Source: Dysgonamonadaceae bacterium (lineage in GTDB: Bacteria > Bacteroidota > Bacteroidia > Bacteroidales > Azobacteroidaceae). From it: 18,897 nt of DNA. A program made the position numbers and the translations under genes. Within the stretch, counting starts at the first letter, position 1; every line of letters starts with the position of its first letter. Below are positions 3,531 through 18,897 of this stretch, piece after piece. The DNA lies in the NCBI GenBank assembly GCA_031255425.1, contig JAIRSN010000131.1, positions 1 through 18,897 on the forward strand, read 5' to 3'. Below the pieces are notes generated by a model. It had not been told where the DNA came from and ran no database searches. It saw only the letters and a list, made by a program, of their open reading frames with translations.

Positions 3531-3621
3531 AAGGTATAAATCTACGGGGGGAAAAATACCATTTTGATGGAGGCGCCACCACCGCCGACCCGGGGTTACT
3601 CATATTCGGTGACTGCGGATT

Positions 3622-3650
3622 ATCATCATCCTATACCTGTATATAAGGTA
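3622..3650 (+). repeat. Head module of the left repeat element
   Basis: ATCATCATCCTATA (3622-3635) followed by TATATAAGGT (to 3649). The same pair of motifs occurs on the opposite strand at 18732-18760 in the right-hand element, again just ahead of the hairpin-bearing part. In this copy about 30 further bases precede the first array unit. This is a comparison within the window; no family name is known to me. Confidence 0.65.
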
Positions 3651-3678
3651 GAAATGAGGTTTGGGGATGCCGGCGGCG

Positions 3679-4035
3679 CTTTCCATTGTATATGGAAAAC
3701 GTCCAGGAGTCTGATTCACGTTTTCCGGGAAACCGGAAAACGTTCCGGCGCTAACATTTGCATTTTCCGGGAAACCGGAAAACGTCCCGGCGTTAACATT
3801 TGCGTTTTCCGGTTCCACCGGAAAACGTGCCGGCGTTAACATTTGCACTTTCCGGTCACACCGGAAAACGTGCCGGAGTCTTATTTACGTTTTCCGGTCA
3901 CACCGGAAAGTGTCCCGGAGTCTCATTTGCGTTTTCCGGTCACACCGGAAAGTGTGCCGGAGTCTCATTTGCGTTTTCCGGTCACACCGGAAAGTGTCCC
4001 GGAGTTCTATTCACGTTTTCCGGGAAACCGGAAAG
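3679..4035 (+). repeat. Tandem array of 42-nt hairpin-bearing units (9 hairpins)
   Basis: Seven full units start at 3721, 3763, 3805, 3848, 3890, 3932 and 3974 (lengths 42, 42, 43, 42, 42, 42, 42). A degenerate unit lies at 3679-3720 and a partial one at 4016-4035. Each starts with a dyad TTTTCCGG, 4-5 nt, CCGGAAAA (or ...AAAG), then a linker like CGTGCCGGAGTCTCATTTGCG. The first, degenerate unit has TTTCCAT-5 nt-ATGGAAA: both arms changed and pairing kept. Units 1-3 share a CGGCGTTAACATTTG linker, while units 4-7 share CGGAGTCT.ATT, so two sub-types exist. Loops are GAAA (1, 2, 8), TTCCA (3) or TCACA (4-7). This is not CRISPR-like, because linkers are repeated rather than unique. Confidence 0.93.
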
Positions 4036-4038
4036 ATT

Positions 4039-4090
4039 AAAAGCGGCTGCGCCGCCGTTTTCCGGGAAACCCGGCGCCGCCGCCGCTTTT
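4039..4090 (+). repeat. 52-bp imperfect palindrome closing the left array
   Basis: The 19-nt arms start AAAAGCGGC (4039) and end GCCGCTTTT (4090); they pair except for about three central bases, around a core TTTTCCGGGAAAC. The right arm runs into TTTTGTATTTT, so a transcript would end in a terminator-like hairpin. The left 31 nt (4038-4068) recur almost exactly, in inverted orientation, at 18693-18722. Confidence 0.8.
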
Positions 4091-4126
4091 GTATTTTCGG
4101 GAAACACACCCCTGTGCATAGCAGGT

Positions 4127-4167
4127 ACACCGTACCTCTTTCAAATTATAAAAGATACCGAGCGTCC
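4127..4167 (+). repeat. Tail module of the left repeat element
   Basis: Begins ACACCGTACCTCTTT and ends with AAAAGATACCGAGCGTCC. It aligns with 18776-18815 on the same strand (about 35 of 40 positions) and with the reverse complement of the sequence beginning at 18505. It marks the right limit of similarity between the elements. Confidence 0.75.
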
Positions 4168-4324
4168 CCGGAAATCATATAAACCATACGGATCACCGTG
4201 CAGACCCTTACACTTTTGGCAGAGTGTTTCAATTCAGATCCGTTTAAGTATCAAAAACACAAGCAAGGTAACATTTCCAACAAGAATGGATGCAAACATT
4301 ATGTTAATTTGTTAAAACAATCCC

Positions 4325-4393: not shown

Positions 4394-7300
4394 ATGAAAA
4401 AGCTAATGTTGTTTTTACTGATGTATTGCATCGGTGTTTACGCTTCGGCACAAATAACTGTCAGCGGCGTTGTGACGTCCTCCACGGACGGATCGACAAT
4501 GCCGGGCGTTAGTGTCACTGTGAAAGATGCAGCCCAGGGAACCGCCACCGGCATCGATGGCAACTTCTCTCTTTCGATTCCGTCGGAAAGGGCTGTCTTA
4601 GTGCTTACGTATATTGGTTACCGGAAAAAAGAAGTTCCGGTGACCGGTAGTTCAAAAGACCTCCGGATCAGCATGGAGGAAGACGTCCTACTGCTGGACG
4701 AGGTGGTGGCGGTAGGATATGGTACCATGAAGAAAAGTGATTTGTCCGGGGCCTCGTTCTCGCTGGGCGAAGACAAGATCAGGGGATCATTGATCACCAA
4801 TATCGACCAGGCGTTGCAAGGCCGCGTTTCCGGAGTGACATCGGTCATGACCTCCGGTGCGCCCGGATCGTCGGTTTCGATTCGCGTCCGCGGGCAGGCG
4901 ACACTGAACGCAGGGGCGGAACCGCTCTACGTGGTGGACGGTGTAATCTGGCAAAGCGGCGAAACCAACAGCCTCCAGTTAGGGCTCGACCTTGGAAACG
5001 GCAAGGCGGGTTCGATTTCTCCCCTGTCTACCTTAAACCCCTCCGACATTGTGTCGATGGAGATTCTGAAAGATGCTTCCGCCACCGCCATCTACGGCGC
5101 GCAGGGAGCCAACGGCGTGGTGCTGGTCACCACCAAACGGGGCAAAGCCGGCGAAGCCAGATTCACCTACGAAGGGATGTACGGCGTACAAAACCAAGTC
5201 CGCCGCCTGGATATGATGAACTTGCGCGAGTATGCCACTTACAGCAATGCGATTCAGGCGCAAACGGCGGGGGCAATCGAACAGCCCGAATATTCCGATC
5301 CTTCCCTGCTCGGAGCGGGAACGAATTGGCAAAACGCTATCTTCCAGGCAGCGCCCATGCAACAACACACCCTTTCGGCGCAAGGCGGTACGGAAACGGT
5401 ACAATATTATGTATCCGGATCGTGGATGGATCAAAAGGGGACGATTATTGGCAGCGACTTCCAACGGTTTTCGGTTCGCGCCAACCTGGATGCGCAACTC
5501 AAATCGTGGTTGAAACTGGGTTTCAATGCCCTGTATTCAAACACCAACGAGCATCTGACCCGCGCGGAAGGCGAACAGGGAGTGCTTACCTATTCGCTTC
5601 AGACGCCTCCGGACATACCTGTCTACGATGTGGACGGCAACTACGCTTCGCAGGTACGCGAGGGCTACACTATTATCAACCCGATTGCCATCGCCCATCT
5701 GGACGAGAACTTGTTGAACCGCCAGAAACTGAACGGAAATGTCTTCCTGGAAGTTACGCCGTTCAAAAACCTCGCCTGGCATACGGAACTGGGTTACGAC
5801 ATCGGCAACAACCGTTCCGAAAACTGGAAACCGACCTACCACTTCGGCCCCGCCGTACAGCGTCCGGTCAACAGTCTTTCGTGGCAACGGACCAACAATT
5901 TCTACTGGCAGGTAAAGAACTATGTGACTTACACCGGCAAAACCGGCAAACATAATTATACCGCAATGGCGGGACAGGAGGCTTGGGAATCGGAATGGGA
6001 ATACCAGCGGATTATGGCAACCGGGCTTCCCGGCGATGAGGTGCGCAACCCCGCCCTGGGCGACAACACGCAACAAGCCTTTGCCAACGGGCTCGGCGAC
6101 GGTTCGATGGTGTCTTTCTTTACCCGCAGCACCTACAATTACGACGACCGGTACCTGGCTACCTATACTTACCGTTACGACAGTTCCTCGAACTTCGGTC
6201 CGAAAAACCGTTGGGCAGGCTTCCATTCGCTCGCTGCTTCGTGGCGTTTTTCCAACGAGTCTTTCCTGGAAGGCGCGAACGACGTACTGAGTAACGGAAA
6301 ACTCCGCGCCGGCTGGGGACAGACCGGAAATTCCAACATCAACGGCGGGCTCTGGAGCCCGACACTCACGCAGTTTCCCACCGGGTTGGGCGCCGGTTAC
6401 AAGCAGTCGCAGATCGCCAATCCGTACGTGAAATGGGAAACGCAGGAACAGTGGAACCTGGGGATTGACCTGGGGTTTGTCTACAACCGCATCAACCTGT
6501 CCGTCGACCTGTACGACAAAACCGCCGCCAATATGTTGATGGAACTGCAACTGCCTTCTTACTTCGGTTCGATGGGAAACGACAACTCCAAACTGACGGC
6601 GCCGATGGGAAACTTTGGAACAATCAACAACAAAGGATTGGAAATATCACTCAATACGCGCAATCTCACCGGAACATTCAAGTGGGATACCGACCTTCAG
6701 GTTTCGTTCAATAAAAACAAACTCGTCGCCTTGCAGGGGACAGACGCCGCAGGAATCTTTGGTTACGGGCAATGGAGCGATGCCATCAGCCTTTCGGAAA
6801 TCGGAAGTTCCCTTTATGAATTTTACGGTTATAAGGTAGAAGGCGTTTACCGGTCCGAAGCCGAAATCAGGGAACATCTCTGGGGAGAAAACTTGGGAGA
6901 ACTCCGGCGAAATTCGACCGTCTTTGTCGGCGACTACAAATATGCCGACCTGGACGGCGACGGCAAGATAACCGAATACGACCGCACAAGCATCGGTTCG
7001 CCGCTGCCGCTGTTCACCTACGGGCTGAACAATACGTTCAGCTATAAGGGTTTCGACTTGAGTATTTTCCTGCAAGGAAGTTACGGCAACAAGGTTTTCA
7101 ACGCGCTCGACCGCCAATTTACCGGAATGGGTTATTGGAACAACCAGTTGAGCAAGGTAATGGATTATGCCAATATCGTGGTAATCGATCCCTCGCAAAC
7201 CTACCCGCGTACCGTGACCGACGGGGCGGGGAATTCGTACGGGGTCGCGAACTGGTACGAAGACATTACCAACGTGCAGCTATCCAATCCCGACACCCGG

Positions 7301-7618
7301 ATCTCGCGGGCGGGACGCAGCTTGCCCTACAACAACCAGCGAATCAGCGACCGCTACATCGAAGACGGTTCCTACCTGCGGATTAAAAACATTGTACTGG
7401 GCTATACTTTGCCCCGGAAATGGATCGCAAAAGCAAACGTGTCGCAGGCACGGGTGTATGTGAACCTGCAAAACCTCTACACCTTTACCAGGTATTCGGG
7501 TTATGATCCCGAAGTGGGTGTCAATCCGCAAGACGCTTCCGGATTCACTTTCGGCTTCGACCAGGGACGTTATCCTGCGCCGCGTGTTATTTCGGGAGGG
7601 GTTAGTATTTCATTCTAA
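4394..7618 (+). CDS. SusC-family TonB-dependent outer-membrane transporter
   Basis: A 1074-residue outer-membrane channel that imports oligosaccharides with its SusD partner, powered by TonB. Residues 1-19 are a signal peptide ending YASA. Residues about 21-97 form the carboxypeptidase-D-like domain typical of SusC (VSGVVTSSTDGSTMPGVSV...). LDEVVAVGYG (about 101-110) is the TonB-box region. The plug follows to about residue 252, with LKDASATAIYGAQGANGVV and VTTKRGKAG. The rest is beta-barrel, with the common late motif DGSYLRIKNIVLGYTLP and a C-terminal Phe. No N-terminal STN signalling domain is present, so it should not drive an anti-sigma factor. It is the first gene of the locus; susD follows after 12 nt. 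Its substrate, probably beta-manno-oligosaccharides, is inferred from the enzyme genes downstream. Confidence 0.96.
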   Translation: MKKLMLFLLMYCIGVYASAQITVSGVVTSSTDGSTMPGVSVTVKDAAQGTATGIDGNFSLSIPSERAVLVLTYIGYRKKEVPVTGSSKDLRISMEEDVLLLDEVVAVGYGTMKKSDLSGASFSLGEDKIRGSLITNIDQALQGRVSGVTSVMTSGAPGSSVSIRVRGQATLNAGAEPLYVVDGVIWQSGETNSLQLGLDLGNGKAGSISPLSTLNPSDIVSMEILKDASATAIYGAQGANGVVLVTTKRGKAGEARFTYEGMYGVQNQVRRLDMMNLREYATYSNAIQAQTAGAIEQPEYSDPSLLGAGTNWQNAIFQAAPMQQHTLSAQGGTETVQYYVSGSWMDQKGTIIGSDFQRFSVRANLDAQLKSWLKLGFNALYSNTNEHLTRAEGEQGVLTYSLQTPPDIPVYDVDGNYASQVREGYTIINPIAIAHLDENLLNRQKLNGNVFLEVTPFKNLAWHTELGYDIGNNRSENWKPTYHFGPAVQRPVNSLSWQRTNNFYWQVKNYVTYTGKTGKHNYTAMAGQEAWESEWEYQRIMATGLPGDEVRNPALGDNTQQAFANGLGDGSMVSFFTRSTYNYDDRYLATYTYRYDSSSNFGPKNRWAGFHSLAASWRFSNESFLEGANDVLSNGKLRAGWGQTGNSNINGGLWSPTLTQFPTGLGAGYKQSQIANPYVKWETQEQWNLGIDLGFVYNRINLSVDLYDKTAANMLMELQLPSYFGSMGNDNSKLTAPMGNFGTINNKGLEISLNTRNLTGTFKWDTDLQVSFNKNKLVALQGTDAAGIFGYGQWSDAISLSEIGSSLYEFYGYKVEGVYRSEAEIREHLWGENLGELRRNSTVFVGDYKYADLDGDGKITEYDRTSIGSPLPLFTYGLNNTFSYKGFDLSIFLQGSYGNKVFNALDRQFTGMGYWNNQLSKVMDYANIVVIDPSQTYPRTVTDGAGNSYGVANWYEDITNVQLSNPDTRISRAGRSLPYNNQRISDRYIEDGSYLRIKNIVLGYTLPRKWIAKANVSQARVYVNLQNLYTFTRYSGYDPEVGVNPQDASGFTFGFDQGRYPAPRVISGGVSISF

Positions 7619-7630
7619 AAAATAAACATT

Positions 7631-9457
7631 ATGAAAAGGATAAATTTTATACAATACATCACCATCGCCTTGTTGTTTGCCGGCTTTGCTTCGTGCGAAG
7701 ACTTTCTCGACCGGCCCGACAAAGGCAGTTATACGCTCTCCGATTTCTTCAAAACCGACGAGCAGTGTTTGCAGGCGGTTAATCCGCTTTATTCCGTTCC
7801 CTGGAACGATTTTATCTCCTGGCGCGGATGGATACAGTTGGGCGATGCCATGTCGGGGAATTACTACATTGCCGACAACGGTTTCTGGTCGTTAACGCCC
7901 AACAACGGCACCTGTACCGATCAACTCCGTTACATGTCGTATTCGCTTTGGGCGGTGAATGCCCGGGCAAACACGGCGATCGAAAACATCAATGCCTATG
8001 CCGGCGAAGGCACCACCGAAGCCGGCAGGAATGCGGCAAAGGGAGAAGCCCTTGTCTGGAAAGCGCTGGCATACTTCTATATGGTGCGCATCTACGGCGC
8101 GGTGCCGATTGTCCATAACAATACGGAACTCTTGGGAACCGGCGAGTACAACACGCTCTACCGCGCTACCATCCCGACGGTTTACGGGTATATTATCAAA
8201 ACGCTGGAGCAAGCCATTGCCTGGTTGCCCGAAACAGCAACCGAAGCGGGACGTATCGACAAATACGTTGCCTGCGGATTGTTGGCAAAGGTATACCTGA
8301 CCAAATCGGGTTACGGGCGCAACGGCGACCGCGACGAAAACGATTTGGCGAAAGCGGCGGAGTATGCCGGCAAAGTCGTCCACGAGAGCGGGCGTACCCT
8401 GATGCCCGAATATTCCGATATTTTCCGCGGACACAACAACACTGCAGACGAAAGCCTGATTGCCTGGCGCTGGGTTGCCACCGGCGACAATTTCTGGACG
8501 GCATCCAATTACATGCAAACCGAATTTGTAGCTGCCGGCTTCTCGGAAGGCGAAGCATGGGGCAACTGGACCGGGCCGAGCCTGGACTTGCAGGCGGCTT
8601 TCGGCGAAACCTTCGACGGCGCGAATCCTTCGGGCGCGCTTTCACCTGTCCGTGCCAATGCAGACAAACGCCGGAAGGCAACCATGATGATGTACGGCGA
8701 TGTCTATGATTATTTCTGGCGCGACCATCCGTCCAAAGAAGATGCCGACCAGAAAATCCATACGTTCCCCCACGGCTTTGACTGGACGAAATTCTATGGC
8801 GATGTATTGGGCGATTTCAGCAGCAGTACCGGCGCCAATGCGGTGAAGCACATTGTCGGGAACGATGCAGACCATACCGCCGAGTTCGGTATTCCGCTCG
8901 GAGGCGCTGCGAAAAAGGCGACAAGCCTGGCGACCCACGTGTTGCGTTTGGGCGATGTGTACTTAGTTTATGCCGAAGCGCTCCTGGGGAATCAAGCGTC
9001 CACGTCCAATGCGGAAGCGCTCAGCGCGTTCAATGCCGTACACGGGCGTGCCGTGGAAAACGATGTTCGTTCGAGTATTACGTGGAGCGATATTTTCAAA
9101 GAACGGCGCCTGGAATTGGCCTTTGAGGGCGATTTTTGGTACGACCTTGTGCGCTGGCATTACTACAAGCCGGACGACGCGCTCAATTTCCTGAAAAACC
9201 AGGAGCGCAGAAATTACGTCGGGCTTTCGCAATATTATAAGGATAAAGGATGGGAACGCTGGGGCGAAACCGATGCGTATCCCAAGCCCGAAACCGAAGG
9301 CAGCACGAAACTGGTTCCGCGTATCAACGATGAGATAGCGGCGCCCAACCCGACTCATGCGCTGTTTGAGATGGCTTTTCCCGAAACGGATCTGAAAATG
9401 AATCCCCATTTAAGCGAAGAACCGCGGGAATACGATTTAAGTCAGTTTAATTATTAA
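7631..9457 (+). CDS. SusD-family surface glycan-binding lipoprotein
   Basis: A 608-residue lipoprotein that forms the lid of the SusC channel and captures glycan. The signal peptide ends FAGFASC with the lipid-carrying Cys at 22. The following EDFLD is both the usual SusD start and an acidic surface-export signal. Helical TPR-type segments include KGEALVWKALAYFYMVRIYGAVPIV and, near the C terminus, VYLVYAEALLG and ERRLELAFEGDFWYDLVRW, all hallmark SusD motifs. Length is at the upper end for SusD, with several loops rich in Trp and Tyr (for example NDFISWRGW, NGFWSL, SEGEAWGNW) that could contact sugar. It lies 12 nt after susC and 11 nt before the next lipoprotein gene. Confidence 0.96.
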   Translation: MKRINFIQYITIALLFAGFASCEDFLDRPDKGSYTLSDFFKTDEQCLQAVNPLYSVPWNDFISWRGWIQLGDAMSGNYYIADNGFWSLTPNNGTCTDQLRYMSYSLWAVNARANTAIENINAYAGEGTTEAGRNAAKGEALVWKALAYFYMVRIYGAVPIVHNNTELLGTGEYNTLYRATIPTVYGYIIKTLEQAIAWLPETATEAGRIDKYVACGLLAKVYLTKSGYGRNGDRDENDLAKAAEYAGKVVHESGRTLMPEYSDIFRGHNNTADESLIAWRWVATGDNFWTASNYMQTEFVAAGFSEGEAWGNWTGPSLDLQAAFGETFDGANPSGALSPVRANADKRRKATMMMYGDVYDYFWRDHPSKEDADQKIHTFPHGFDWTKFYGDVLGDFSSSTGANAVKHIVGNDADHTAEFGIPLGGAAKKATSLATHVLRLGDVYLVYAEALLGNQASTSNAEALSAFNAVHGRAVENDVRSSITWSDIFKERRLELAFEGDFWYDLVRWHYYKPDDALNFLKNQERRNYVGLSQYYKDKGWERWGETDAYPKPETEGSTKLVPRINDEIAAPNPTHALFEMAFPETDLKMNPHLSEEPREYDLSQFNY

Positions 9458-9468
9458 TAATTAGGAAT

Positions 9469-10695
9469 ATGAAAAATATAATTTATAAAGCATTTTTCCT
9501 GCTACCGCTTCTGGCGTTTGTATCCTGCCAGGAAGAAACGCCCGGAAAATACGAGATGACAGACGGCGTGCCGACGGTACACTACATCCGTTACCAGGAC
9601 AAAGACCTGGAAGAACAACTGCTGGAAGGCGCCTTTATGAACGAAAACATTGTCATCATAGGCGAAAACCTCACCAGTATCCGCGAGGTATGGTTCAACA
9701 ATGTAAAAGCGGCGTTGAATATCAATTTCATTACCAAAAACACGCTCTTTTGCGCCGTACCCAGGGATTTGCCTTCGGTACGTACCGACAAAATGTATCT
9801 GGTAACGGGAAAGAACGACACGGTCGCTTACGACTTTGAAGTGAAAATCCCGGCTCCGGTACTCAGCCGCATCAAATGCGAAATGGTTCCGGAAGGAGGG
9901 CTCGCAGTGCTTACCGGCGACTATTTCCTGGCGCCCGACCTAAGCCTGATTCATGTATTTATAGGCGATTACGAAGTCCCGACCGCCGATATTGTCAGTT
10001 GTGAAAAGAACAGCATCGTATTCAAGGCGCCTGCAATGGACATCCGGGGAGCGGTGGAAGTGAAAACCCTGTATGGCAACAGTGGGCGTTCGAAGGATAT
10101 TTTCCACGACGACCGCGGTTGGATCACCGGCTTCGAAGAAGGTTTCGTAGGCGGCTGGGGACGTCCCACGCACATCGAAAATGACCCCGAACTGGCGCTT
10201 ATGGGCAATTATGTGAAATTGTCCGGCGACCTGGCGGCAGGCACCTGGGTTTCCGGTGGAAACGATTACACCATTAATATCTGGGGCGAAGACAACGGCG
10301 TTCCGTCCGGCAACCTGTTCCCGGGCGATCCGGCGACTGCCACTTTGAAGTTCGAAGTGAATGTCTTGCAGCCGTGGTCGGGCATGCCGCTGATTGTTTG
10401 CTTCTTTGAGCAGGGCTACCATGAAGATTGGTTGTGGAACAGCGATTATCCCCGCGCTTTCTGGACTCCCTGGCGAGTGAACGACAAGGTCGTCCCCTAT
10501 GTGACGGATGGCTGGGAAACCCTGTCGATTCCCCTTGCCGACTGCCGGTGGAGCGCTCACGGAACCGCGGTGCCTTTGGCGACGCATTACGGAGCCTTGG
10601 GATTCAGTGTCCACACGTTCGGCAATTACGATGCCGTCGTCGGCGAAGATTGCAGCCCCATTATCCTTATCGACAATATTCGCGTAATTCCCTAA
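9469..10695 (+). CDS. Surface glycan-binding lipoprotein with IPT/TIG domains
   Basis: A 408-residue protein. The lipobox LLAFVSC places the acylated Cys at 20, followed by QEE, an acidic surface signal. Residues about 34-128 and 129-217 resemble two IPT/TIG immunoglobulin-like domains (NIVIIGENLTSIREVWFNN; GLAVLTGDYFLAPDLSLIHV). From about 218 onward a beta-sandwich starts WITGFEEGFVGGWG and ends IILIDNIRVIP. It is rich in exposed aromatics (NVLQPWSGMP, HEDWLWNSDYPRAFWTPW), as in the C-terminal binding domain of SGBP-B-type proteins. Position directly after susD fits a surface glycan-binding protein that holds mannan for the GH26 enzyme. The ligand is inferred from the locus. Confidence 0.88.
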   Translation: MKNIIYKAFFLLPLLAFVSCQEETPGKYEMTDGVPTVHYIRYQDKDLEEQLLEGAFMNENIVIIGENLTSIREVWFNNVKAALNINFITKNTLFCAVPRDLPSVRTDKMYLVTGKNDTVAYDFEVKIPAPVLSRIKCEMVPEGGLAVLTGDYFLAPDLSLIHVFIGDYEVPTADIVSCEKNSIVFKAPAMDIRGAVEVKTLYGNSGRSKDIFHDDRGWITGFEEGFVGGWGRPTHIENDPELALMGNYVKLSGDLAAGTWVSGGNDYTINIWGEDNGVPSGNLFPGDPATATLKFEVNVLQPWSGMPLIVCFFEQGYHEDWLWNSDYPRAFWTPWRVNDKVVPYVTDGWETLSIPLADCRWSAHGTAVPLATHYGALGFSVHTFGNYDAVVGEDCSPIILIDNIRVIP

Positions 10696-10712
10696 CCCAA
10701 AATTATACAATC

Positions 10713-13064
10713 ATGAACAAGAAAAATAGAATAATAACCGTCCGGACCATCGGGTTGATGTTGCTCAGCGCATTCTTCGTTTTCACAACCTGCCAGAACG
10801 ACGACCTCAACACCGATTCGTTAAGCAGTTCGGCTACCACGCTGAAGGCTTTCGGTCCGAATCCTGCCTTGCGCGGGCAAAAATTGAGCTTTGCCGGTAC
10901 CCATTTGAATAAAATCACCAAAGTGATTCTGCCCGACGGCATCGAAATTACCGACATCGAAGTAGTAAGTGATAAATTGATTCAAGTGCCGGTTCCGCAG
11001 GAAACCGTTGGAGGCGTGGTCCGGTTGACCGGCGCCAACGGGTTGGAACTGGTTACGAAAGACCCGTTAACGATTTCGGAACCGGTTGAGATTACGAAAA
11101 TAACCCCGCAACCGGTCAAAGCCGGACAAACGTTGACGATCGAAGGAAACTATTTCAATTTAATGGGAAAAGTCATTTTTTCCGACAAAGTAGAAGTACT
11201 GAAAGAAGATTGCCAAACATGGGAACGCACCAAAATCACGTTGGTTGTTCCTGCCGAAGCGCAAACCGGCGTCGTTATCTTAGCCGACAATGCCGAGATT
11301 CCACTCGAATATCAATCGCCCGAACCCTTGCAAGTGGTTCTTCCGTCGGTGGATAAAGTATTGGATTTAACGGACAAAAAACCGGAGGAAACCGTCCGCA
11401 CAACGGGCTCCGACCTGGACTTGGTGGTTTCGGTTGAAATGCCGGACGGCGAAGAAGTACCGTTCACGGTTGAAGACAACACGCTTGCGTTTGCGCTCTC
11501 CGGAACAGTAAGCGACGGCGCTGTCGTGATGATTCCGGCGTCCGGCGTCCGGGTGGTTGTCGCCAATATCGGCGTCGCCGTTCCCGCCGGAATCACGGTC
11601 ACCCCGGCGGCGGGATTGCGCGCCGGCGACGAGATAACGGTCACCGGTATCAATATGGAGCTGGTCACCTCCGTTACGTTTCCGGGGGTAGCGGAAGCCG
11701 TTGTACCCGGTTCGGTTTCGGCAACCGAGATCAAAGTAAATATGCCTGAAAAAGCCATCAGCGGCGAAATCACCTTAAATACCGCCAGCGGGAAAACCGT
11801 TGCCGCCGAAATCGCGACCCTGAAACCCGGTGTGACAAACTACAACCCGTCGCCCGTTGCCGCCGGTTCGGAGGTCATACTGGAAGGGCATCACCTCGAC
11901 TTGGTGGTTTCCGTAACCTTTGGCGGGGAACTGCTTGTTCCGGTGACGCCTGCGGCTGCCGAACAACTGACGGTTGCCGTTCCGCTCAATGCATTGCCGG
12001 GCGTTGTCGTACTGACAATGGCAAACGGCGAAACCGTGGAATGTGAGGCGTTGGAAATTACCGCCCCTGCTTTTGCCTACCTTCCGGATCCTCCGGGACC
12101 GAAAGCCGAAATCTATGCGGGAGGCGTCCTGTCCCTGACCGTGGAAAACGGCAACCAGTTGACCGACGTGCAAATCAACGGGGCACCGGTGAAATACATC
12201 CTGGATAATCCGCTGCTGTATGCTGTTGTGCCGAACAACGCCAAAGGCGACACCGAATTGAAACTGGTTTCGTCGAACGGCACGGCGGTCTATACGATTC
12301 CGGTGATTGGCGCCGGCATTGTTGAGACGGTTGTCTTTGAAGGGCTTCACGAATTGAATTGGGGAGCGGGCTTGACATTGGAGAAGGATTTATTCCGGAG
12401 CGTTCCGTCCGGTTCGGTCCTGAAAGTCTATCTGACGGTTACGGATGCCGGGGCATCCATTGCCTTCAGCGATGCGGGGTGGACGAAATTAACGGTCGAT
12501 CATCCCGACTTTCAACCGGACTGGGGAACCGTGGCGCTCGCCGAGGGCACAACCAGCCTGGAAATCGTGCTGACGGCAGAGATTCTGAATACGATCCTGA
12601 CGGTTGAAGACGGTTGGAGCCAAACCGCCCTGATGATGACCGGTGCAAACGCTATCGTCTCCAAAGTATCGATTATCGTGGGCAGCAGCGCGACGGAAGA
12701 AGTCGTTATTTCCGAAGAAACAGTCGATTTCGGCGCTTGGGAAAACACCCTGCGCTTGAATAAGGAATCGTTCGACGGCGTGCGGGCGGGAGCCATCCTG
12801 AAAATGTACATCACCACCACCGGCGACGCGCCTCAATTCGCGTTGCAGGATGCTAACTGGGCGAAAGTAGCCATTCCCGACGACCCGAATTTCGATTCGC
12901 AATGGGGTTCGGTGACCGTTCCGGCGGGCGCTACCTCGTATGAAGTGGTGCTTACCCAGGATATTCTGGATGCCATTCTTATTCCCGACGACGGTTGGTC
13001 GACAACGGCTATCGTGCTTGGCGGAACCGGTATGATCGTCAACAAGGTGTCGGTTATTCAATAA
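10713..13064 (+). CDS. Large surface lipoprotein with about six IPT/TIG repeats and twin C-terminal modules
   Basis: A 783-residue protein from the ATG at 10713 (MNKKNRIITVRT), 17 nt after the preceding stop; the frame is open further upstream, but only inside the previous gene. The lipobox FFVFTTC gives an acylated Cys at 27, followed by QNDD. Then come about six IPT/TIG-like repeats of about 80 residues (roughly 43-125, 126-210, 211-290, 291-370, 371-452, 453-534). Repeats 3-5 share a DLVVSV-type motif. Residues about 537-655 and 660-783 are two related beta-sandwich modules sharing the order W(G/E)...L, LK.Y.T.T, DANW or DAGW, WG.V, LT..IL..IL, DGWS.TA and KVSI. They look like carbohydrate-binding modules, but I cannot assign a CBM family. 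The gene is followed by a strong terminator hairpin. Role as extended mannan-binding protein is inferred from context. Confidence 0.85.
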   Translation: MNKKNRIITVRTIGLMLLSAFFVFTTCQNDDLNTDSLSSSATTLKAFGPNPALRGQKLSFAGTHLNKITKVILPDGIEITDIEVVSDKLIQVPVPQETVGGVVRLTGANGLELVTKDPLTISEPVEITKITPQPVKAGQTLTIEGNYFNLMGKVIFSDKVEVLKEDCQTWERTKITLVVPAEAQTGVVILADNAEIPLEYQSPEPLQVVLPSVDKVLDLTDKKPEETVRTTGSDLDLVVSVEMPDGEEVPFTVEDNTLAFALSGTVSDGAVVMIPASGVRVVVANIGVAVPAGITVTPAAGLRAGDEITVTGINMELVTSVTFPGVAEAVVPGSVSATEIKVNMPEKAISGEITLNTASGKTVAAEIATLKPGVTNYNPSPVAAGSEVILEGHHLDLVVSVTFGGELLVPVTPAAAEQLTVAVPLNALPGVVVLTMANGETVECEALEITAPAFAYLPDPPGPKAEIYAGGVLSLTVENGNQLTDVQINGAPVKYILDNPLLYAVVPNNAKGDTELKLVSSNGTAVYTIPVIGAGIVETVVFEGLHELNWGAGLTLEKDLFRSVPSGSVLKVYLTVTDAGASIAFSDAGWTKLTVDHPDFQPDWGTVALAEGTTSLEIVLTAEILNTILTVEDGWSQTALMMTGANAIVSKVSIIVGSSATEEVVISEETVDFGAWENTLRLNKESFDGVRAGAILKMYITTTGDAPQFALQDANWAKVAIPDDPNFDSQWGSVTVPAGATSYEVVLTQDILDAILIPDDGWSTTAIVLGGTGMIVNKVSVIQ

Positions 13065-13075
13065 ATTATTCATCG

Positions 13076-13110
13076 AAAAGGGCAAAGATCCTATGCTTTG
13101 CCCTTTTTCT
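13076..13110 (+). terminator. Intrinsic terminator inside the mannan operon
   Basis: A perfect 12-bp stem, AAAAGGGCAAAG (13076-13087) with CTTTGCCCTTTT (13096-13107), an 8-nt loop and a T-rich tract running on to about 13115. It begins 11 nt after the stop of the large lipoprotein gene and ends about 17 nt before the GH26 start, leaving no room for a separate promoter downstream. It most likely attenuates rather than ends transcription. Confidence 0.85.
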
Positions 13111-13126
13111 TTTTGCCTTTTCTAAA

Positions 13127-14218
13127 ATGATACGTACCCTTTATTACTGCTTTTTTTCCGGTTTGTTGCTTTTCTCGTGCGAGCATCCGGGTGAACCGCC
13201 GGCGGCTCCGGTTTTGCCGGAAATTCCCGGAACGCAGGAACCTCCCGCCGTCGAACAGCCGGGCTTGGTGGTGAAACATCCGACCGCTGCGACGCTGCGC
13301 TTATACCATTTCCTCCAGGAAAACTACGGCAGGAAAATCCTCTCCGGAACGGTTGCCAATGTCAGTTGGAACACCCACGAAGCCGAATGGGTGCATCACC
13401 ACACCGGAAAATATCCCGCACTGAATACCTTCGATTATATCTTCCTTTATGCCTCGCCTGCAAATTGGATCGATTACAGCCAGACGCAGGTCGTGGAGGA
13501 TTGGTGGAACAACAACGGCATCGTGAGCTGTATGTGGCACTGGAATGTCCCCGTCCGTCCGGGAAGCGATGCGTATGAATTTTACACCGGCCGGACCTCA
13601 TTCGACATCTCCAAAGCCGTCGTGGAGGGAACGTATGAAAATGCCGTGGTCAAAGCCGACCTCGAAAAAATAGCCGGAAACCTTTTATTATTGAAACAAA
13701 AAAACATACCCGTCCTTTGGCGTCCTTTACACGAAGCCGCCGGCGGATGGTTCTGGTGGGGCGCGAAAGGCGCTCAACCCTGCAAAGCGCTTTGGAAGAT
13801 GATGTTCGACTTCTTTCAGGAAAAAGAATTGAACAACCTGATCTGGGTATGGACTTCCGAACCCAACGATGAGGCATGGTATCCCGGCGACGCCTGTGTC
13901 GATATAATCGGGCGGGACATGTACAACAAAACCGGCGCAACGGATATGTACGAAGAATACGATGCCCTGAAAAAGCGTTTTCCCCATAAAATAATCGCCC
14001 TCAGCGAATGTGGAAACGTAGCCGGAATAGCTGCGCAATGGAACGCCGGCGCTACCTGGTCGTGGTTTATGCCGTGGTACGATTATGAGCGGACGAACGA
14101 CCCCGCCGGCAGCGCTTTCAACAGCGAGGCGCACCAACATGCAAGCGCCGCCTACTGGAAAAGCGCTTTTGCGAACGAACAAGTGATTTCCCGGGACGAA
14201 ATGCCCGGATTAAAATAA
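13127..14218 (+). CDS. GH26 beta-mannanase lipoprotein
   Basis: A 363-residue glycoside hydrolase of family 26 that cleaves beta-1,4-mannosidic bonds. I chose the ATG at 13127 (MIRTLYYCFF...); upstream codons of the frame lie inside the previous gene and the terminator. The signal peptide ends LLLFSC (Cys18), so it is a lipoprotein, and a Pro-rich linker (19-47) tethers the (beta/alpha)8 domain. The acid/base is E203 in WRPLHEAAGGWFWWG and the nucleophile is E294 in ALSECGN, both at the positions expected for GH26. Aromatic subsite segments CMWHWNVP and WSWFMPWYDYERTND also fit the family. Family GH26 also holds lichenases and xylanases, but the GH130 and epimerase genes next door point to mannan and mannobiose. 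It may match the mannobiose-forming GH26 of the B. fragilis mannan cluster. Confidence 0.93.
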   Translation: MIRTLYYCFFSGLLLFSCEHPGEPPAAPVLPEIPGTQEPPAVEQPGLVVKHPTAATLRLYHFLQENYGRKILSGTVANVSWNTHEAEWVHHHTGKYPALNTFDYIFLYASPANWIDYSQTQVVEDWWNNNGIVSCMWHWNVPVRPGSDAYEFYTGRTSFDISKAVVEGTYENAVVKADLEKIAGNLLLLKQKNIPVLWRPLHEAAGGWFWWGAKGAQPCKALWKMMFDFFQEKELNNLIWVWTSEPNDEAWYPGDACVDIIGRDMYNKTGATDMYEEYDALKKRFPHKIIALSECGNVAGIAAQWNAGATWSWFMPWYDYERTNDPAGSAFNSEAHQHASAAYWKSAFANEQVISRDEMPGLK

Positions 14219-14225
14219 ATAAGCA

Positions 14226-15404
14226 ATGGAATTGTATAAACAAAAAGTAAACCGGTTGTTTGAACAGCAGGAACAACTGTTGTCCCGGAAAAACGAAATG
14301 AAACAAATATCCAACGGCATCTGCCGGCGGTACCGGTACCCGGTGCTGACGGCGGCGCATACCCCGCTGATCTGGCGTTACGACTTTGACCCGGCGAGCA
14401 ATCCCGCGCTGTTGGAACGGATCGGGATGAACGGAACGTTCAATGCGGGCGCTATCCGCTGGGAGGGGAAGTACGTGCTGGTGGTGCGCGTGGAAGGAAA
14501 CGACCGGAAATCGTTCTTTGCGATAGCCGAGAGTCCCAACGGGGTAGACAATTTCCGTTTCCGCGATTATCCCGTTTCCCTGCCCGACGGGGACGACCCG
14601 GAAACCAATGTCTACGATATGCGCCTGACCAAACACGAAGACGGATGGATCTACGGTTTGTTCTGCGCGGAAAGGAAAGACCCCGCTGCCGCCCCCGGCG
14701 ACTTGTCGTCCGCAACGGCTTCCTGCGGAATCGTGCGGACCCAAGACCTCCTGTCCTGGGAACGCTTGCCCGACCTGAAATCAAAATCGCAGCAACGCAA
14801 TGTCGTCCTTCATCCGGAATTTGTGAACGGCTGTTACGCCCTTTATACCCGTCCGCAAGACGGTTTTATCGATGCCGGTTCCGGTGGCGGAATCGGGTGG
14901 GCGCTGGTTGAGGATATGGCGAAGGCGGAAATCACCGGCGAAAAAATCATCAACCTGCGCCAATACCATACCATCAAAGAGGTGAAAAACGGCGAAGGAC
15001 CGCCTCCCATCCGGACGGCGAAAGGCTGGTTGCACCTGGCGCACGGCGTCCGGGCATGCGCTGCCGGGCTCCGGTATGTCCTCTACCTTTATATGACCGG
15101 ACTGGAGGATCCGTCGGAAGTGATCGCGGAACCTGCCGGGCACTTGCTGGCGCCGGAGGGTGAAGAACGCACCGGCGACGTTTCCAATGTCCTCTTTTCC
15201 AACGGCTGGATTGCCGGCGACGACGGTACGGTCTATCTTTATTATGCTTCTTCCGATACCCGGATGCACGTGGCTACGTCGACCCTCGATAAGCTGGTGG
15301 ACTATTGCCTGAACTCTCCCGCCGACGGAGGGCGTTCCAAGACCTCGGTCGATGCGATTATACGGTTAGTCAATAAAAACAAATCAATGCCGGATCTGCG
15401 CTAA
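14226..15404 (+). CDS. GH130 4-O-beta-D-mannosyl-D-glucose phosphorylase
   Basis: A 392-residue cytoplasmic enzyme without a signal peptide. It splits mannosyl-beta-1,4-glucose with phosphate to mannose 1-phosphate and glucose, saving one ATP. Family GH130 five-blade propeller motifs are present: NGTFNAGAIRWEGKYVLVVRVEG, NVYDMRLTKHEDGW, TRPQDGFIDAGSGGGIGWA, RTAKGWLHLAHGVR, LYMTGLEDPSEVI and DGTVYLYYASSDTRMHVA. The proton donor Asp is at residue 131, the same number as reported for the B. fragilis enzyme. The sequence and its epimerase neighbour favour the mannosylglucose subfamily (GH130_1) over manno-oligosaccharide phosphorylases. It starts 7 nt after the GH26 stop. Confidence 0.94.
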   Translation: MELYKQKVNRLFEQQEQLLSRKNEMKQISNGICRRYRYPVLTAAHTPLIWRYDFDPASNPALLERIGMNGTFNAGAIRWEGKYVLVVRVEGNDRKSFFAIAESPNGVDNFRFRDYPVSLPDGDDPETNVYDMRLTKHEDGWIYGLFCAERKDPAAAPGDLSSATASCGIVRTQDLLSWERLPDLKSKSQQRNVVLHPEFVNGCYALYTRPQDGFIDAGSGGGIGWALVEDMAKAEITGEKIINLRQYHTIKEVKNGEGPPPIRTAKGWLHLAHGVRACAAGLRYVLYLYMTGLEDPSEVIAEPAGHLLAPEGEERTGDVSNVLFSNGWIAGDDGTVYLYYASSDTRMHVATSTLDKLVDYCLNSPADGGRSKTSVDAIIRLVNKNKSMPDLR

Positions 15405-15425
15405 ACGCTGCATCCCAAGCGAATC

Positions 15426-16616
15426 ATGCAAACACTTCAATCGGAATTAACAAACGAACTTTTCGAAAATATCCTGCCGTACTGGATGACGAAAATGCCG
15501 GACGTTGAAAACGGCGGCTTTTACGGGCGAATCGACGGGCAGGAACACGTGCACAAACAGGCGAATAAGGGGCTGGTGCTGAATGCCCGCATCCTGTGGA
15601 CTTTTGCCGCGGCGTACCGGTTGCGGAAACATCCCCGCTACCTCGAAACGGCGGAACGGGCATTCGCTTATATCCGCGAATATTTTATCGACAAAGAATA
15701 CGGCGGCGTTTATTGGGAACTGGATTACCGCGGCAGGCCGGTCAGTACGCGCAAGCAAATCTATGCGCAGGGATTTGCCCTGTACGGCTTTAGCGAACTG
15801 TACCGTGCCACCGGAAACCCGGACGCGCTGGAGGAAGCGCTCCGGATGTACGACCGGATCGAACGGCTGGCACACGACGCCCGCTACGGCGGCTACCTCG
15901 AAGCATTGAGCCGGGAGTGGCAGCCCATCGGGGACATGAAGCTGAGCGCCCGCGACGCCAATGTCCCCAAGTCCATGAACACGCACCTGCATATTCTGGA
16001 GCCGTATACCAACCTTCTGCGCATCCGGCGCGACCCGGCGCTGGAAAAGGCGCAGGAAGCCTTGATCCGGATTTTCTGCGATCACATTGTTTCCGCCGAA
16101 ACGCATCACCTGACGCTTTTTTTTGATGAAAGATGGAACAAAAAATCGACCGTCGTTTCCTACGGACATGATATTGAAGCCGCCTGGCTCCTGTATGAAG
16201 CGGCGGAGGTGCTGGGGAATGAAACGCTCACCGGCAGGGTGAAACAGGTGGCTTTGTCGCTTGTGGATGCGGCTTACGAAGGTCTTCAAGAAGCGGGCGG
16301 GATGATGTACGAATCGGAAGGCGCGCGTTCCGACCGCGACCGCCACTGGTGGATTCAGGCGGAAACCGTCGCCGGGTCGGTGTACGCCTACCGTCTTTCG
16401 GGCGACGCTTCTTACCTGGACGTGGCGAAAAAGACCTGGCAGTATATCCGGCATCATATCCTGGATAAGGTAAACGGCGAATGGGTCTGGAGCGCCGGTC
16501 CCGACGGCAGGCAAAACCGCACGGACGATAAGGCGGGTTTCTGGAAATGCCCGTACCACAACGCCCGGATGTGTATGGAAGTGATGAATTGGAACGAATT
16601 AAAAGAACATTTATGA
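15426..16616 (+). CDS. Cellobiose/mannobiose 2-epimerase (AGE family)
   Basis: A 396-residue cytoplasmic enzyme of the N-acylglucosamine 2-epimerase superfamily, with the (alpha/alpha)6 barrel. It converts the reducing-end mannose of mannobiose to glucose, making the substrate of the GH130 enzyme encoded just before it. The three histidines of the cellobiose 2-epimerase active site are visible as H189 (NTHLHILE), H248 (SYGHDIEAAWLL) and H378 (WKCPYHNARM). Their spacing closely matches characterised enzymes. Other family segments are NGGFYGRIDG, KGLVLNARILWTFAAAY, YGGVYWELDYRG, QIYAQGFALYGFSELY and RHWWIQAETVAG. The stop overlaps the next start (ATGA), which suggests translational coupling with the symporter. 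Confidence 0.94.
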   Translation: MQTLQSELTNELFENILPYWMTKMPDVENGGFYGRIDGQEHVHKQANKGLVLNARILWTFAAAYRLRKHPRYLETAERAFAYIREYFIDKEYGGVYWELDYRGRPVSTRKQIYAQGFALYGFSELYRATGNPDALEEALRMYDRIERLAHDARYGGYLEALSREWQPIGDMKLSARDANVPKSMNTHLHILEPYTNLLRIRRDPALEKAQEALIRIFCDHIVSAETHHLTLFFDERWNKKSTVVSYGHDIEAAWLLYEAAEVLGNETLTGRVKQVALSLVDAAYEGLQEAGGMMYESEGARSDRDRHWWIQAETVAGSVYAYRLSGDASYLDVAKKTWQYIRHHILDKVNGEWVWSAGPDGRQNRTDDKAGFWKCPYHNARMCMEVMNWNELKEHL

Positions 16617-18499
16617 GAGAAATAGTATTAAGCGGAGTCGATATGACTGTTATTGCGCTTTACCTCGGCTTTTTGATTTTTATCGGGCTTTACCTGAAAA
16701 AGAGAGCTTCCGGCAACCTGGAATCCTATCTTCTGGGCGGCAAATCGCTGCCGTGGTATATGCTCGGATTGTCCAACGCCTCCGGAATGTTCGACATCTC
16801 CGGCACGGTCTGGCTGGTCGCCATCACGGTCGTTTACGGTATCAAAAGCATTTACATCCCCTGGTTGTGGCCGGTGTTCAACCAGATATTCCTGATGGTT
16901 TACCTCTCGGCATGGCTTCGCCGGTCGGGATGTACCACCGGCGCCGAGTGGATCGGTTTCCGCTTCGGGAACGACAAGGGCGCCCGGCTGTCCCATGCCG
17001 TTATCGTGTTGTTTGCCGTTATTTCCTGCCTGGGAATGTTGGCATACGGGTTTATCGGGATGGGGAAATTCATAGAGATTTTTCTTCCTTTAAAGACTTT
17101 GTTTCCGTTTCTTGGGTGGATTCCCGACGCATACGTTCCTTCGGTATGGGGCGTTGCGTTTACGCTCTTTGCTGTTTTCTACGCTTTGCTGGGCGGGATG
17201 ATTTCCATTGTCTGGGCGGATGTTGCGCAATACATCATTATGACGCTGGCGGCGATTGCTATTGCCGTCATTGCGATGCTGCACCTGACGCCGGAAACGT
17301 TCCACCGGCTTCTTCCCGAAGGTTGGCTGTCGCCCGGTTTCGGGAAAACCCTGGACTTGCACTGGACCGGCGCCTTTGCCGAGTTTAACGAGACGATTGC
17401 CGGGTCGCCCTACCGGATTTTCAGTCTTTTCTTCGGAATGGTTTTGTTGAAAGGCATTCTGGCTTCGGTTGCCGGTCCGGCGCCGACGTATGATATGCAG
17501 AAAATCCTTTCCGCAAAAAGCCCGAAAGAAGCCTCGATGATGTCGGGGTTTGTGAGCATCGTGCTGATGCCTGTCCGCTACCTGATGATTGCGGGGATTG
17601 CCGTACTCGGACTGATGCTTTTCCGCGACATCGAGCCGGGCATCCGCAATGCCGCCGGCGGGGTGGATTTCGAACTGGTACTGCCGGCGATTGTCGGGCA
17701 TCCGTGGATTCCGGCGGGACTGACCGGCATCGTGATTGCCGGGCTTCTGGCGGCTTTCATGTCTACTTTTGCCGGAACGTTGAATGCGGCGCAAGCCTAC
17801 ATCGTGAACGATATTTACATCAAGTTCTTCCGTCCGGACGCGACACCCGGACAAACGGCACGGGCGAATTACGGCGTGGGGCTGGCGATTGTTTCGATCA
17901 GCATCCTTTTCGGGATTCTTGCGCAGGACGTCAACCAGGTTTTGCAATGGGTGACGAACGCTTTGTATGGCAGTTACGTAGCTGCCAATATCCTGAAGTG
18001 GCACTGGTGGCGGTTCAATTCCAGCGGCTTTGCCTGGGGCATGGCGGCGGGATTGGTTCCGGCATTGATATTGCCGCTGGCGGTTCCGCCGCTGGTGGCG
18101 GCTTTGCCTTCGCAGTGGGCGTTGTTGAGCGAGCCGTTGTATTATTTTCCGGTAATTCTTTTGTTTTCCGTGGCGGGATGCATCGCCGGAACGTACGCTG
18201 CGCCGCCGACGGAGGAGGATACCTTGAAACGTTTCTACAAACAAACCCGTCCGTGGGGTTTCTGGAAGCCGGTACATGCGAAAGTGGTGGCGGATGATCC
18301 GTCGTTCTGCGGAAACAAAAACTTCGGACGCGATATGTTCAACGTGGTGGCGGGTATTGTCTGGCAGACGGCACTGGTGGCGACGCCGATCTATTTGGTA
18401 TGCAAAAAATTCTCTGCGGCGGGGCTTGGGTTGATGGTTATTGTTGTTACGTCGATCGTTCTCTACTCAAACTGGTATAAGAAACTGGAAGATTATTAA
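16613..18499 (+). CDS. Sodium/solute symporter (SSS family), probable mannobiose transporter
   Basis: A 628-residue inner-membrane protein from the ATG at 16613. It has many hydrophobic segments, the first at about 10-27 (MTVIALYLGFLIFIGLYL), followed by the family-typical LESYLLGGKSLPWYMLGLSNASGMFDISG. The SSS signature region AFMSTFAGTLNAAQAYIVNDIY lies mid-protein and includes the Ser-Thr pair near the expected Na2 site. A hydrophilic stretch near the C terminus (PPTEEDTLKRFYKQTRPWGFWKP) is followed by two last membrane helices. Position after GH130 and the epimerase matches the B. fragilis mannan gene set, where the transporter is thought to carry mannobiose into the cytoplasm. SSS membership is secure; the substrate is inferred. 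It is the last gene of the locus. Confidence 0.9.
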   Translation: MREIVLSGVDMTVIALYLGFLIFIGLYLKKRASGNLESYLLGGKSLPWYMLGLSNASGMFDISGTVWLVAITVVYGIKSIYIPWLWPVFNQIFLMVYLSAWLRRSGCTTGAEWIGFRFGNDKGARLSHAVIVLFAVISCLGMLAYGFIGMGKFIEIFLPLKTLFPFLGWIPDAYVPSVWGVAFTLFAVFYALLGGMISIVWADVAQYIIMTLAAIAIAVIAMLHLTPETFHRLLPEGWLSPGFGKTLDLHWTGAFAEFNETIAGSPYRIFSLFFGMVLLKGILASVAGPAPTYDMQKILSAKSPKEASMMSGFVSIVLMPVRYLMIAGIAVLGLMLFRDIEPGIRNAAGGVDFELVLPAIVGHPWIPAGLTGIVIAGLLAAFMSTFAGTLNAAQAYIVNDIYIKFFRPDATPGQTARANYGVGLAIVSISILFGILAQDVNQVLQWVTNALYGSYVAANILKWHWWRFNSSGFAWGMAAGLVPALILPLAVPPLVAALPSQWALLSEPLYYFPVILLFSVAGCIAGTYAAPPTEEDTLKRFYKQTRPWGFWKPVHAKVVADDPSFCGNKNFGRDMFNVVAGIVWQTALVATPIYLVCKKFSAAGLGLMVIVVTSIVLYSNWYKKLEDY

Positions 18500-18527
18500 G
18501 ACACGGACATGCAGTGTCTTTTATATT
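18498..18527 (+). terminator. Terminator-like hairpin ending the mannan operon, inside a repeat end
   Basis: AAGACAC (18498-18504) pairs with GTGTCTT (18514-18520) around a 9-nt loop and is followed by TTATATTTT. The hairpin starts within the symporter stop codon and is part of the left terminal inverted repeat of the right-hand element. The 7-bp stem and interrupted T tract make it moderate in strength. Confidence 0.6.
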
Positions 18528-18568
18528 TTAAAGGAATACGGCATATCTGCTTGGCTGCGCCGCCGGAA

Positions 18569-18662
18569 CTTCCGCTTTCGCAAAAAAGACCTCCGGCACG
18601 AAAGCGGAGCTTCCGCTTTTGCAAAAAAGACCTCCGGCACGAAAGCGGAGCTTCCGCTTTTA
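18569..18662 (-). repeat. Tandem 41-nt hairpin units of the right-hand element (2.3 copies)
   Basis: Units start at 18569, 18610 and 18651 (partial) with a 41-nt period and are almost identical. At each junction AAAGCGGA-GCT-TCCGCTTT forms an 8-bp stem with a 3-nt loop. Read on the minus strand the linker is CGTGCCGGAGGTCTTTTTTGC, which aligns with the CGTGCCGGAGTCT...TTTGCG linker of the left array, though the hairpin arms differ completely. Confidence 0.88.
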
Positions 18663-18682
18663 AAAAAAACATCTGCTGCGGA

Positions 18683-18722
18683 TTTTCGGAACTTCCCGAA
18701 AACGGCGGCGCAGCCGCTTTTA
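18683..18722 (-). repeat. Hairpin plus 30-nt motif shared with the left element
   Basis: TTTTCGG (18683-18689) pairs with CCGAAAA (18696-18702). Overlapping it, 18693-18722 read on the minus strand begins TAAAAGCGGCTGCGCC and equals 4038-4068 of the left element except for one missing C. Confidence 0.8.
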
Positions 18723-18788
18723 TATTACACCTTATATATAATAGGATATAGGATGATGATACGTGGATACCCCGGACACCGCACCTCT

Positions 18789-18896
18789 TTAAATTACAAA
18801 AGACACCGCGTGTCCGTGTTCTTCTAAGGAAACGGCATAGCGGACAGCTTGCCGGTAGACGCCGGTCCACGGGTTTTCGTCCGGAGTAGCCGCCAG
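18789..18896 (-). CDS. Possible C-terminal end of a minus-strand gene (partial, unidentified)
   Basis: The minus strand is open from the right edge to a TAA at 18789-18791, giving 35 residues that include NPWTGVYRQAVRYAVSLEEHG, with codon use like the neighbouring genes. The stop lies inside the terminal repeat. A second open minus frame ends at a TAG at 18824-18826, exactly at the repeat border, and ends with GKLSAMPFP. I cannot choose between them or name a family. Confidence 0.25.
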   Translation of the reverse strand: MAATPDENPWTGVYRQAVRYAVSLEEHGHAVSFVI

Positions 18897-18897
18897 G

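Follow-up and report, generated by a model that had tools for sequence, protein, structure and literature searches.

The question raised by this locus is how two arrays of palindromes, lying on one contig and joined by related linkers, come to carry different hairpin arms. The window, i.e., the whole stretch of DNA that was analyzed (18,897 nucleotides), is a single contig of the genome assembly of a Dysgonamonadaceae bacterium (2.01 Mb, 274 contigs, 76.9% completeness). An earlier note on this DNA, made from the sequence alone, had proposed that the arms are element-specific and homogenized, that the linkers are family-wide, and that the palindrome of each locus is perhaps a binding site or a processing signal.

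Positions 4394–18499 of the window carry what we take, from the translations, to be SusC/SusD-like genes, then mannan-use-operon-like genes and, as the last one, a sodium-solute-symporter-like gene. The best match of the window transporter gene was found in Dysgonamonadaceae Cc175_bin72 (82%, best segment) and a more distant one in Ca. Azobacteroides Mp193P4bin4 (75%), both bins presumably originating from termite gut. At the other side of the right array, a gene end on the minus strand (18787–18897; ..NPWTGVYRQAVRYAVSLEEHGHAVSFVI, stop) enters the right element, which supplies its last codons and the stop. Contigs C268 and C89 (loci L002 and L003) terminate in near-identical gene ends, and their upstream sequences are unlike each other; this may reflect either a repeated gene end or chimeric contigs.

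Two composite elements in the window

The left composite element (about 3540–4180, plus strand; a query region with approximate ends) contains an array of nine palindromes at ~42-nt spacing (3680–4034, plus strand; locus L031, 1641–1995), for which TRF reported a period of 42 and 8.1 copies over 3694–4034. Its first palindrome (3680–3698) reads TTTCCAT(TGTAT)ATGGAAA, the arms of the following ones are of the TTTTCCGG(T)/(A)CCGGAAAA types, and four middle units have TTTCCGGT(CAC)ACCGGAAA. An end-module hairpin common to both elements lies at 4038–4065 (plus strand; a 28-nt inverted match), and the right end of the element (4137–4167, plus strand) is 74% similar to 18505–18535.

The right composite element (18500–18820, minus strand) consists of an array and end modules, with a 33-nt inverted repeat at its borders. 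The first terminal repeat (18501–18533) adjoins the transporter stop codon and has a short hairpin and then TTTT inside, the second (18787–18819) matches it at 88%, and a hairpin with a T run is found at both ends of the element. On the minus strand, a palindrome with the arm AAAGCGGA.. (18563–18578), which from its sequence is truncated where the end module joins, is accompanied by the linker CGTGCCGGAGGTCTTTTTTGCG (18579–18600), a first full palindrome AAAGCGGA(AGC)TCCGCTTT (18601–18619), the linker CGTGCCGGAGGTCTTTTTTGCA (18620–18641) and a second full copy of the same palindrome (18642–18660), so that the array reads AAAGCGGA(AGC)TCCGCTTT - CGTGCCGGAGGTCTTTTTTGC - AAAGCGGA(AGC)TCCGCTTT (TRF: period 41, 2.6 copies, 18564–18669). 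The terminal palindrome of this element (18683–18702, minus strand) has other arms, TTTTCGG(..)CCGAAAA, of the type found at another locus of the genome (L111), and is overlapped by the end-module hairpin AAAAGCGGCTGCGCCGCC.. (18695–18722, minus strand), 28 nt of which are 96% complementary to 4038–4065. Folding of single DNA units gave −10.6 kcal/mol (z −3.7) for the left array and −9.5 kcal/mol (z −2.2) for the right one.

Seven left linkers (all but the first of the eight) were compared with the right linker and showed 67–86% identity to it; against shuffled left linkers this likeness was above chance for six of the seven (P at most 0.0135; P 0.105 for the seventh). The two arrays are real and related by linker, as the earlier note had it, and its further description was also borne out: the units are 41 and 42 nt long, a dyad stands between linkers in both arrays (8–9 bp, with a linker of ~22 nt), and the arms differ (AAAGCGGA/TCCGCTTT on the right, TTTTCCGG/CCGGAAAA on the left). 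The near-uniformity of arms within each element held for the inner units but not for the terminal ones, which have foreign arms at 3680–3698 and 18683–18702; on the right it rests on few units, because only two complete AAAGCGGA palindromes and a truncated one are present.

Partition of arms and linkers across the genome

DNA searches of the same genome with the two window elements as queries gave 109 and 154 matches. With a covariance model built on the unit the number was 164 at E ≤ 0.1, those listed being placed on 47 contigs; the units of the right array and of L004 are in the model alignment, yet absent among the matches listed (to about E 0.024). From 60 search loci, 47 were analyzed with a parser of self-complementarity and spacing (left out were 10 repeats of the same places as well as L002, L003, and L008), with a chain defined as three or more dyads at 38–46 nt spacing. 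The parser found 32 chains with 169 dyads in 29 of these 47 loci, and one block-shuffled control of the same loci contained 0 dyads in chains. In 580 kb from other Bacteroidota, made up of 80 transporter loci, the parser gave no array and three chains, each with three unlike dyads. A dyad of at least 6 bp was also present in the consensus of 48 out of 51 TRF arrays with a period of 40–44 (shuffled consensi: mean 5.6, maximum 9).

Across 39 own-genome loci, gathered by similarity to the window elements or by the unit model derived from them and therefore biased toward shared linkers, Kst was 0.74 for stems (95% bootstrap 0.63–0.84) and 0.62 for centers, vs 0.35 for linkers (0.26–0.43). Stems differed by 0.094 within and by 0.363 between loci, centers by 0.273 and 0.716, and linkers by 0.303 and 0.466. 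It is the arms that are partitioned by array, the linkers being so to a much lesser degree. It should be stressed that this claim rests on the within/between-locus partition, since there is no absolute excess of linker over arm conservation: the mean identity between loci was 0.665 for palindromes and 0.657 for linkers (0.608 and 0.590 when shuffled), and stems differed less between loci than linkers did.

The sharing of arms was also compared at given levels of linker identity. The probability of the same 7-mer arm was 0.69 within a locus for linkers less than 70% identical (104 pairs) and 0.90 for linkers at least 80% identical (137 pairs); between loci it was 0.315 for linkers at least 80% identical (1060 pairs) and 0.08 for those below 70% (6306 pairs), and for random palindromes 0.00025. 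Within-locus sharing exceeded linker-matched sharing between loci in 24 of 28 loci (p 1.5e-5), with a tie in L004 and the reverse in L022, L041, and the right array of the window (L001), whose sole linker-matched comparisons, two with L004, gave the same arms. A looser match (5/6 with shifts), by which arms were shared at 0.90 within a locus with dissimilar linkers vs 0.735 between loci with matching linkers and within-locus sharing was the higher in 26 of 31 arrays, was replaced by 7-mer identity because it made the TTCCGG and TTCGGG types indistinguishable.

Over 29 loci, there were 17 dominant arm words, 12 of them private to one locus (several being only one or two letters apart) and the others shared by six, four, and three loci and, for two words, by two loci. 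A near-same stem was found in 73 of 741 locus pairs; a near-identical linker flank was found in 243 pairs, 47 of which differ at >40% of stem positions. The linkers fell into 10 clusters, that is several related types (average linkage at 0.30, at which palindromes merged into five clusters that did not enter the arm counts). Across loci, arm type is associated with linker type, despite the partition of the arms. When the copies were collected, arms clustered by locus for the family as a whole, linker similarity persisted with more copies, and arms were not identical genome-wide; the picture of element-specific arms and family-wide linkers is partly supported, with the corrections that arms are partly shared and linkers are of several types.

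The gene context bears on function. At 10 of 40 own-genome loci a simple ORF rule gave a gene on either side, and the neighbors were divergent in four, convergent in three and tandem in three cases, which argues against one transcriptional role. A general role as terminator was dropped, as a strict-pattern terminator scan gave one case. The binding site or processing signal suggested in the earlier note gained no support. Arms serving as recognition sites of locus-specific proteins, or as a processing signal, would agree with their conservation within arrays, their dyad form and the regular spacing, but many readers would be needed for the 17 dominant arm words that a single genome has in 29 loci, no preference for orientation was seen, and an Rfam scan of the window gave 0 matches at the gathering score, so we hold this explanation to be improbable.

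Further features were noted within the family. As to the unpaired CGTC that CGTC-tagged REP sequences have at one stem end, ACGTCC follows the stem in many own-genome units and was, by eye, absent in L017, L018, L129, L132, and L146. End modules are themselves tandemly repeated, with copies of 92 and 98 bp, in L055 (550–1100) and L060 (80–700), and L023, L043, and L049 have further repeated palindromic modules (GACCC.. and CAGGGC..GCCCTG) near or inside composite elements.

Variation within arrays and in related genomes

Per-site differences within arrays amounted to 0.071 for the stem, 0.268 for the center and 0.280 for the linker, with the stem below the linker in 41 of 42 arrays of at least four units, in a test that is conditioned on dyads by its dyad-based calls. 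TRF-called arrays, in which dyads were not used, gave 0.070, 0.195 (loop), and 0.194, respectively, and the stem was below the linker in 40 of 44 computable arrays (p 2e-8; of the 51 arrays, three had no dyad and four too few units). Stems are about three to four times less variable than linkers within arrays. As duplication of whole units alone predicts equal diversity over the unit, contrary to these data, either selected hairpins or copied arms have to be considered.

Stems covaried in a sample of 94 units, to which no array contributed more than three distinct ones: 214 cells were changed on both sides vs 79 ± 7 in shuffled data, and the covariation score was 0.515 vs 0.180 shuffled and at most 0.168 slid. 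In the same sample, pairs with a change on both sides were in no excess (10 vs 9.1 shuffled, 154 of 500 shuffles). The number of further pair types was barely above shuffles (30 vs 26.3, 19 of 500 shuffles), and outer stem pairs are often unpaired. Within arrays, the 114 changed stem cells, which are non-independent events since one switch can fill a whole block, comprised 59 double Watson–Crick changes, 39 one-sided mismatches, 13 one-sided G-T pairs, and three double mismatches. As G-T is no commoner than other mismatches, a DNA palindrome fits better than an RNA stem.

Arms switch block-wise within the arrays L020, L022, L041, L132, and L146. In L132 the arms switch together with the linkers (0 of 2000 permutations), which unit duplication is enough to explain; for L020, L022, and L041 the association of arm block with linker had P of 0.19–0.66, with too few linkers to tell. 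L146, which belongs to a genome of another family (G392), changes from TTTCAGAA to TTTCGGAA after the seventh unit, both sides being changed, and this double change (A.T to G.C) is held in the last 10 of 17 units; its linker variants showed no significant association with the arm block (P 0.12).

By eye, one linker family occurs in the window's genome with three arm states, represented by L111, L006/L012, and L001/L004. Arms are TTTTCGG/CCGAAAA in L111 and AAAGCGGA/TCCGCTTT in L001 (the right array) and L004, and L006 and L012 have hybrid palindromes, with one arm AAAAGCGG.. and the other ..CCGAAAA (also by eye). The end-module hairpin starts with AAAAGCGG. It is plausible that the swapped arm of the right array arose from a half-palindrome taken from the end module, after which the other arm would have been corrected; in L006 and L012 the hybrid arm stays asymmetric throughout the array, hence such correction is not always fast. 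Half-and-half palindromes were also noticed by eye in L230 of a related genome (G025), where blocks of different arms meet.

Arms could alternatively be the target sequence, with a linker module as the mobile part that was inserted into a palindrome already standing at the site, the palindrome being duplicated with every insertion. Linker types do recur with different arms, L129, L130, and L132 start and end with a palindrome bordering other sequence (by eye; in L131 and L146 one border is linker-like), and L019 has an end module flanked by two copies of one palindrome arm. However, the five arrays with block-wise switching change their arms internally, the same arm words turn up at further loci, and an empty site was never observed, which makes an origin by insertion unlikely.

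Arrays are also present in relatives. Matches to the unit model at E ≤ 0.01 were obtained in 14 of 45 genomes of the family, own included, and among 11 stretches from genus relatives six, from three other genomes, contained arrays, with no chain of three dyads in L134, L135, and L137–L139. A search of 393 genomes of the order, of low sensitivity (16 candidates scored per genome), gave matches at E ≤ 5e-4 in two others, G392 and G068; the former carries the 17-unit L146, and the stretch from the latter (L148) had no chain of three dyads. The arrays of relatives have the same anatomy, with linkers and arms of their own. Downstream of the transporter in six relatives no array was visible, the intergenic sequence being too diverged for calling an empty site.

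Two arrays of G025, L130 and L131, share a linker type and each lies beside a copy of one module (74% identity overall, 549 columns). At arm positions 5–7 from the center the identity between the two is 0.00, 0.17, and 0.14, and elsewhere in the arm it is 0.79–1.00 (positions 1–4) and 0.86–1.00 (positions 8–10). Linker positions differ about as much as within L130, which is itself heterogeneous at arm positions 4 and 7. Since the flanking module is dispersed in G025, the two arrays need not be duplicates of one locus. This module (L130, L131, and L230–L248) contains a microsatellite, either (TG)n or (CA)n, and its flanks are conserved; with one array plus the module as query, 54 matches were obtained in G025, and a chain of at least three dyads was found in three of the 20 loci parsed. 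L236 (520–700) of the same genome has a run of TGCGAGTGCTCTCGCA-type palindromic units with a period shorter than 41 nt.

The arrays might in principle be an assembly artefact of a fragmented metagenome bin, as the genome is in 274 contigs at 76.9% completeness and many of its arrays are at contig ends. This is largely refuted by mid-contig arrays between coding regions (L031, L027, L040, and L043) and by arrays in the independent genomes G025 (93% complete) and G392 (99% complete), and is very improbable; the arrays may themselves add to the fragmentation of metagenome bins, because so many of them lie at contig ends.

Known systems and the possible origin of array-specific arms

Among known systems, the closest are elements of Porphyromonas gingivalis, another member of Bacteroidales (BrickBuilt, MITE464/PgRS; PMC4596501), in which a minisatellite lies inside a MITE-like intergenic element, as here. 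In the available part of that source, BrickBuilt and PgRS have flanking segments and inverted-repeat ends, shown here for the right element only, BrickBuilt has no transposase inside, and the tandem units of PgRS are 41 nt long, like the 41–43 nt here (a comparison by description only). The same part gives 23-nt repeats without spacers for BrickBuilt and does not describe locus-specific palindromic arms; the IS5-type terminal repeat GAGAC(C/T)NTTGCA given there is unlike the GACACGGACA.. of the present elements, and by eye this IS5-like sequence is absent from the right element, the terminal repeat of which is GACACGGACATGC..GTGTC.

Other systems share single features. Neisserial mosaic elements (dRS3 + RS; PMC3898611) combine intergenic palindromes of ~20 bp with other repeats, as is the case here, but in the accessible text dRS3 has constant outer arms (ATTCCC N8 GGGAAT) and the RS repeats form several families, whereas here the arms vary and the linkers are shared; the dRS3 arm was not among the 17 dominant arm words over 29 loci. 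REP/CGTC palindromes and REPINs (PMC3733652, PMC3116915) are, in the portions available, high-copy short extragenic palindromes, some of them clustered, and the CGTC types have 8–9 bp stems (PMC3733652), as do those described here; head-to-tail dimers of CGTC repeats are given as negligible in that portion, in contrast to the head-to-tail arrays of fixed period here. REP sequences with RAYT are a Y1 transposase system, and Y1_Tnp (PF01797) had 0 matches in the window's genome (77% complete), with 6 of 14 control genomes positive. Organelle repetitive hairpin elements and selfish palindromes (PMC2800124, PMC2670323) are intergenic hairpins alike in structure and divergent in sequence, as here; they are organellar, and the consulted sections do not describe tandem 41–43 nt arrays with shared linkers. 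A CRISPR array, which would have a single constant repeat and unique spacers, was rejected, as related linkers recur at other loci and the palindromes differ between loci. The palindromic repeats of the cited papers are, in the parts available, described by a fixed stem sequence, unlike the present arrays, and in the share of the literature covered (titles and starts of abstracts) no bacterial system with array-specific arms and shared linkers was found.

Arms are uniform along an array or block, covary and are less variable within arrays than loops and linkers, and loci that differ in their arms have related linkers and end modules in common. We consider, at a probability of roughly 50%, that the elements are MITE-like and intergenic and that their palindromes are homogenized by hairpin template switching together with unit duplication. 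Such elements would be non-autonomous and composite, and each can carry a palindrome/linker minisatellite with a unit of 41–43 nt. Their mobility is presumed because of dispersal and terminal inverted repeats, no transposase (no Y1_Tnp) being tied to the element.

Each palindrome of an array would be complementary to itself and to its neighbors in both directions, so that replication stalled in a palindrome could switch template within it or to a neighbor and thereby copy an arm. A new arm might arise by a point change or from a half-palindrome of another module, be made symmetric, and then spread along the array; duplication and deletion of units would spread arm and linker jointly, and recombination between loci would redistribute linkers and end modules. 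Precedents for the first step exist: according to the parts of the sources seen, in E. coli stalled polymerases switch template at quasi-palindromes and make them more perfect (PMC7202029), and in yeast template switching homogenizes the arms of inverted repeats (PMC8604942). In these portions quasi-palindrome correction makes imperfect inverted repeats more perfect, which is the same process as proposed here, but it concerns single sites, and spread along a tandem array is our extension to the present elements.

The main rival of copying is selection on the ability to form a hairpin (in RNA or DNA, e.g., as terminator, RNA stabilizer or insulator), the arm sequence itself being irrelevant; arms would then change slowly by rare compensated changes, arrays would grow by duplication, and arm types would be old subfamilies. 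Stem covariation agrees with this, as do the lower diversity of the stem in 41 of 42 arrays (equally expected from purifying selection on the hairpin), arm words common to groups of loci, the linker–arm type association (0.315 vs 0.08), the joint switch of arm and linker in L132, and the hairpin followed by a T run at both ends of the right element. G-T pairs, however, are not favored (13 vs 39 mismatches), no single transcriptional role fits four divergent, three convergent and three tandem contexts, 47 of the 243 linker-flank-matched locus pairs differ at >40% of stem positions, and L130 and L131, with one linker type, have unlike base pairs at three arm positions in almost every unit. Selection of this kind is possible, although less probable than copying. 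The copying model, which is drawn from standing sequences, is ranked first because of L130/L131, L146, and the hybrid palindromes, and under this model the array-specific palindrome would mainly reflect concerted evolution of a self-complementary sequence rather than a locus address with a dedicated reader.

Array-uniform arms next to related linkers suggest that the palindromes of an array, as DNA, may overwrite each other's sequence. Between arrays the stem can change freely; along one array it is constant, with pairing kept, and linkers behave otherwise. The stronger form of this idea, in which palindromes template their neighbors and an arm variant sweeps the array independently of the linkers, is still tentative and somewhat unlikely. 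If true, the arrays would be small populations of competing palindromes (palindrome drive), each locus converging on its own hairpin. If arms do spread apart from linkers, these elements would be natural records of hairpin template switching, showing concerted evolution at base-pair resolution, and may serve as a test bed for the origin and sweep of compensated changes.
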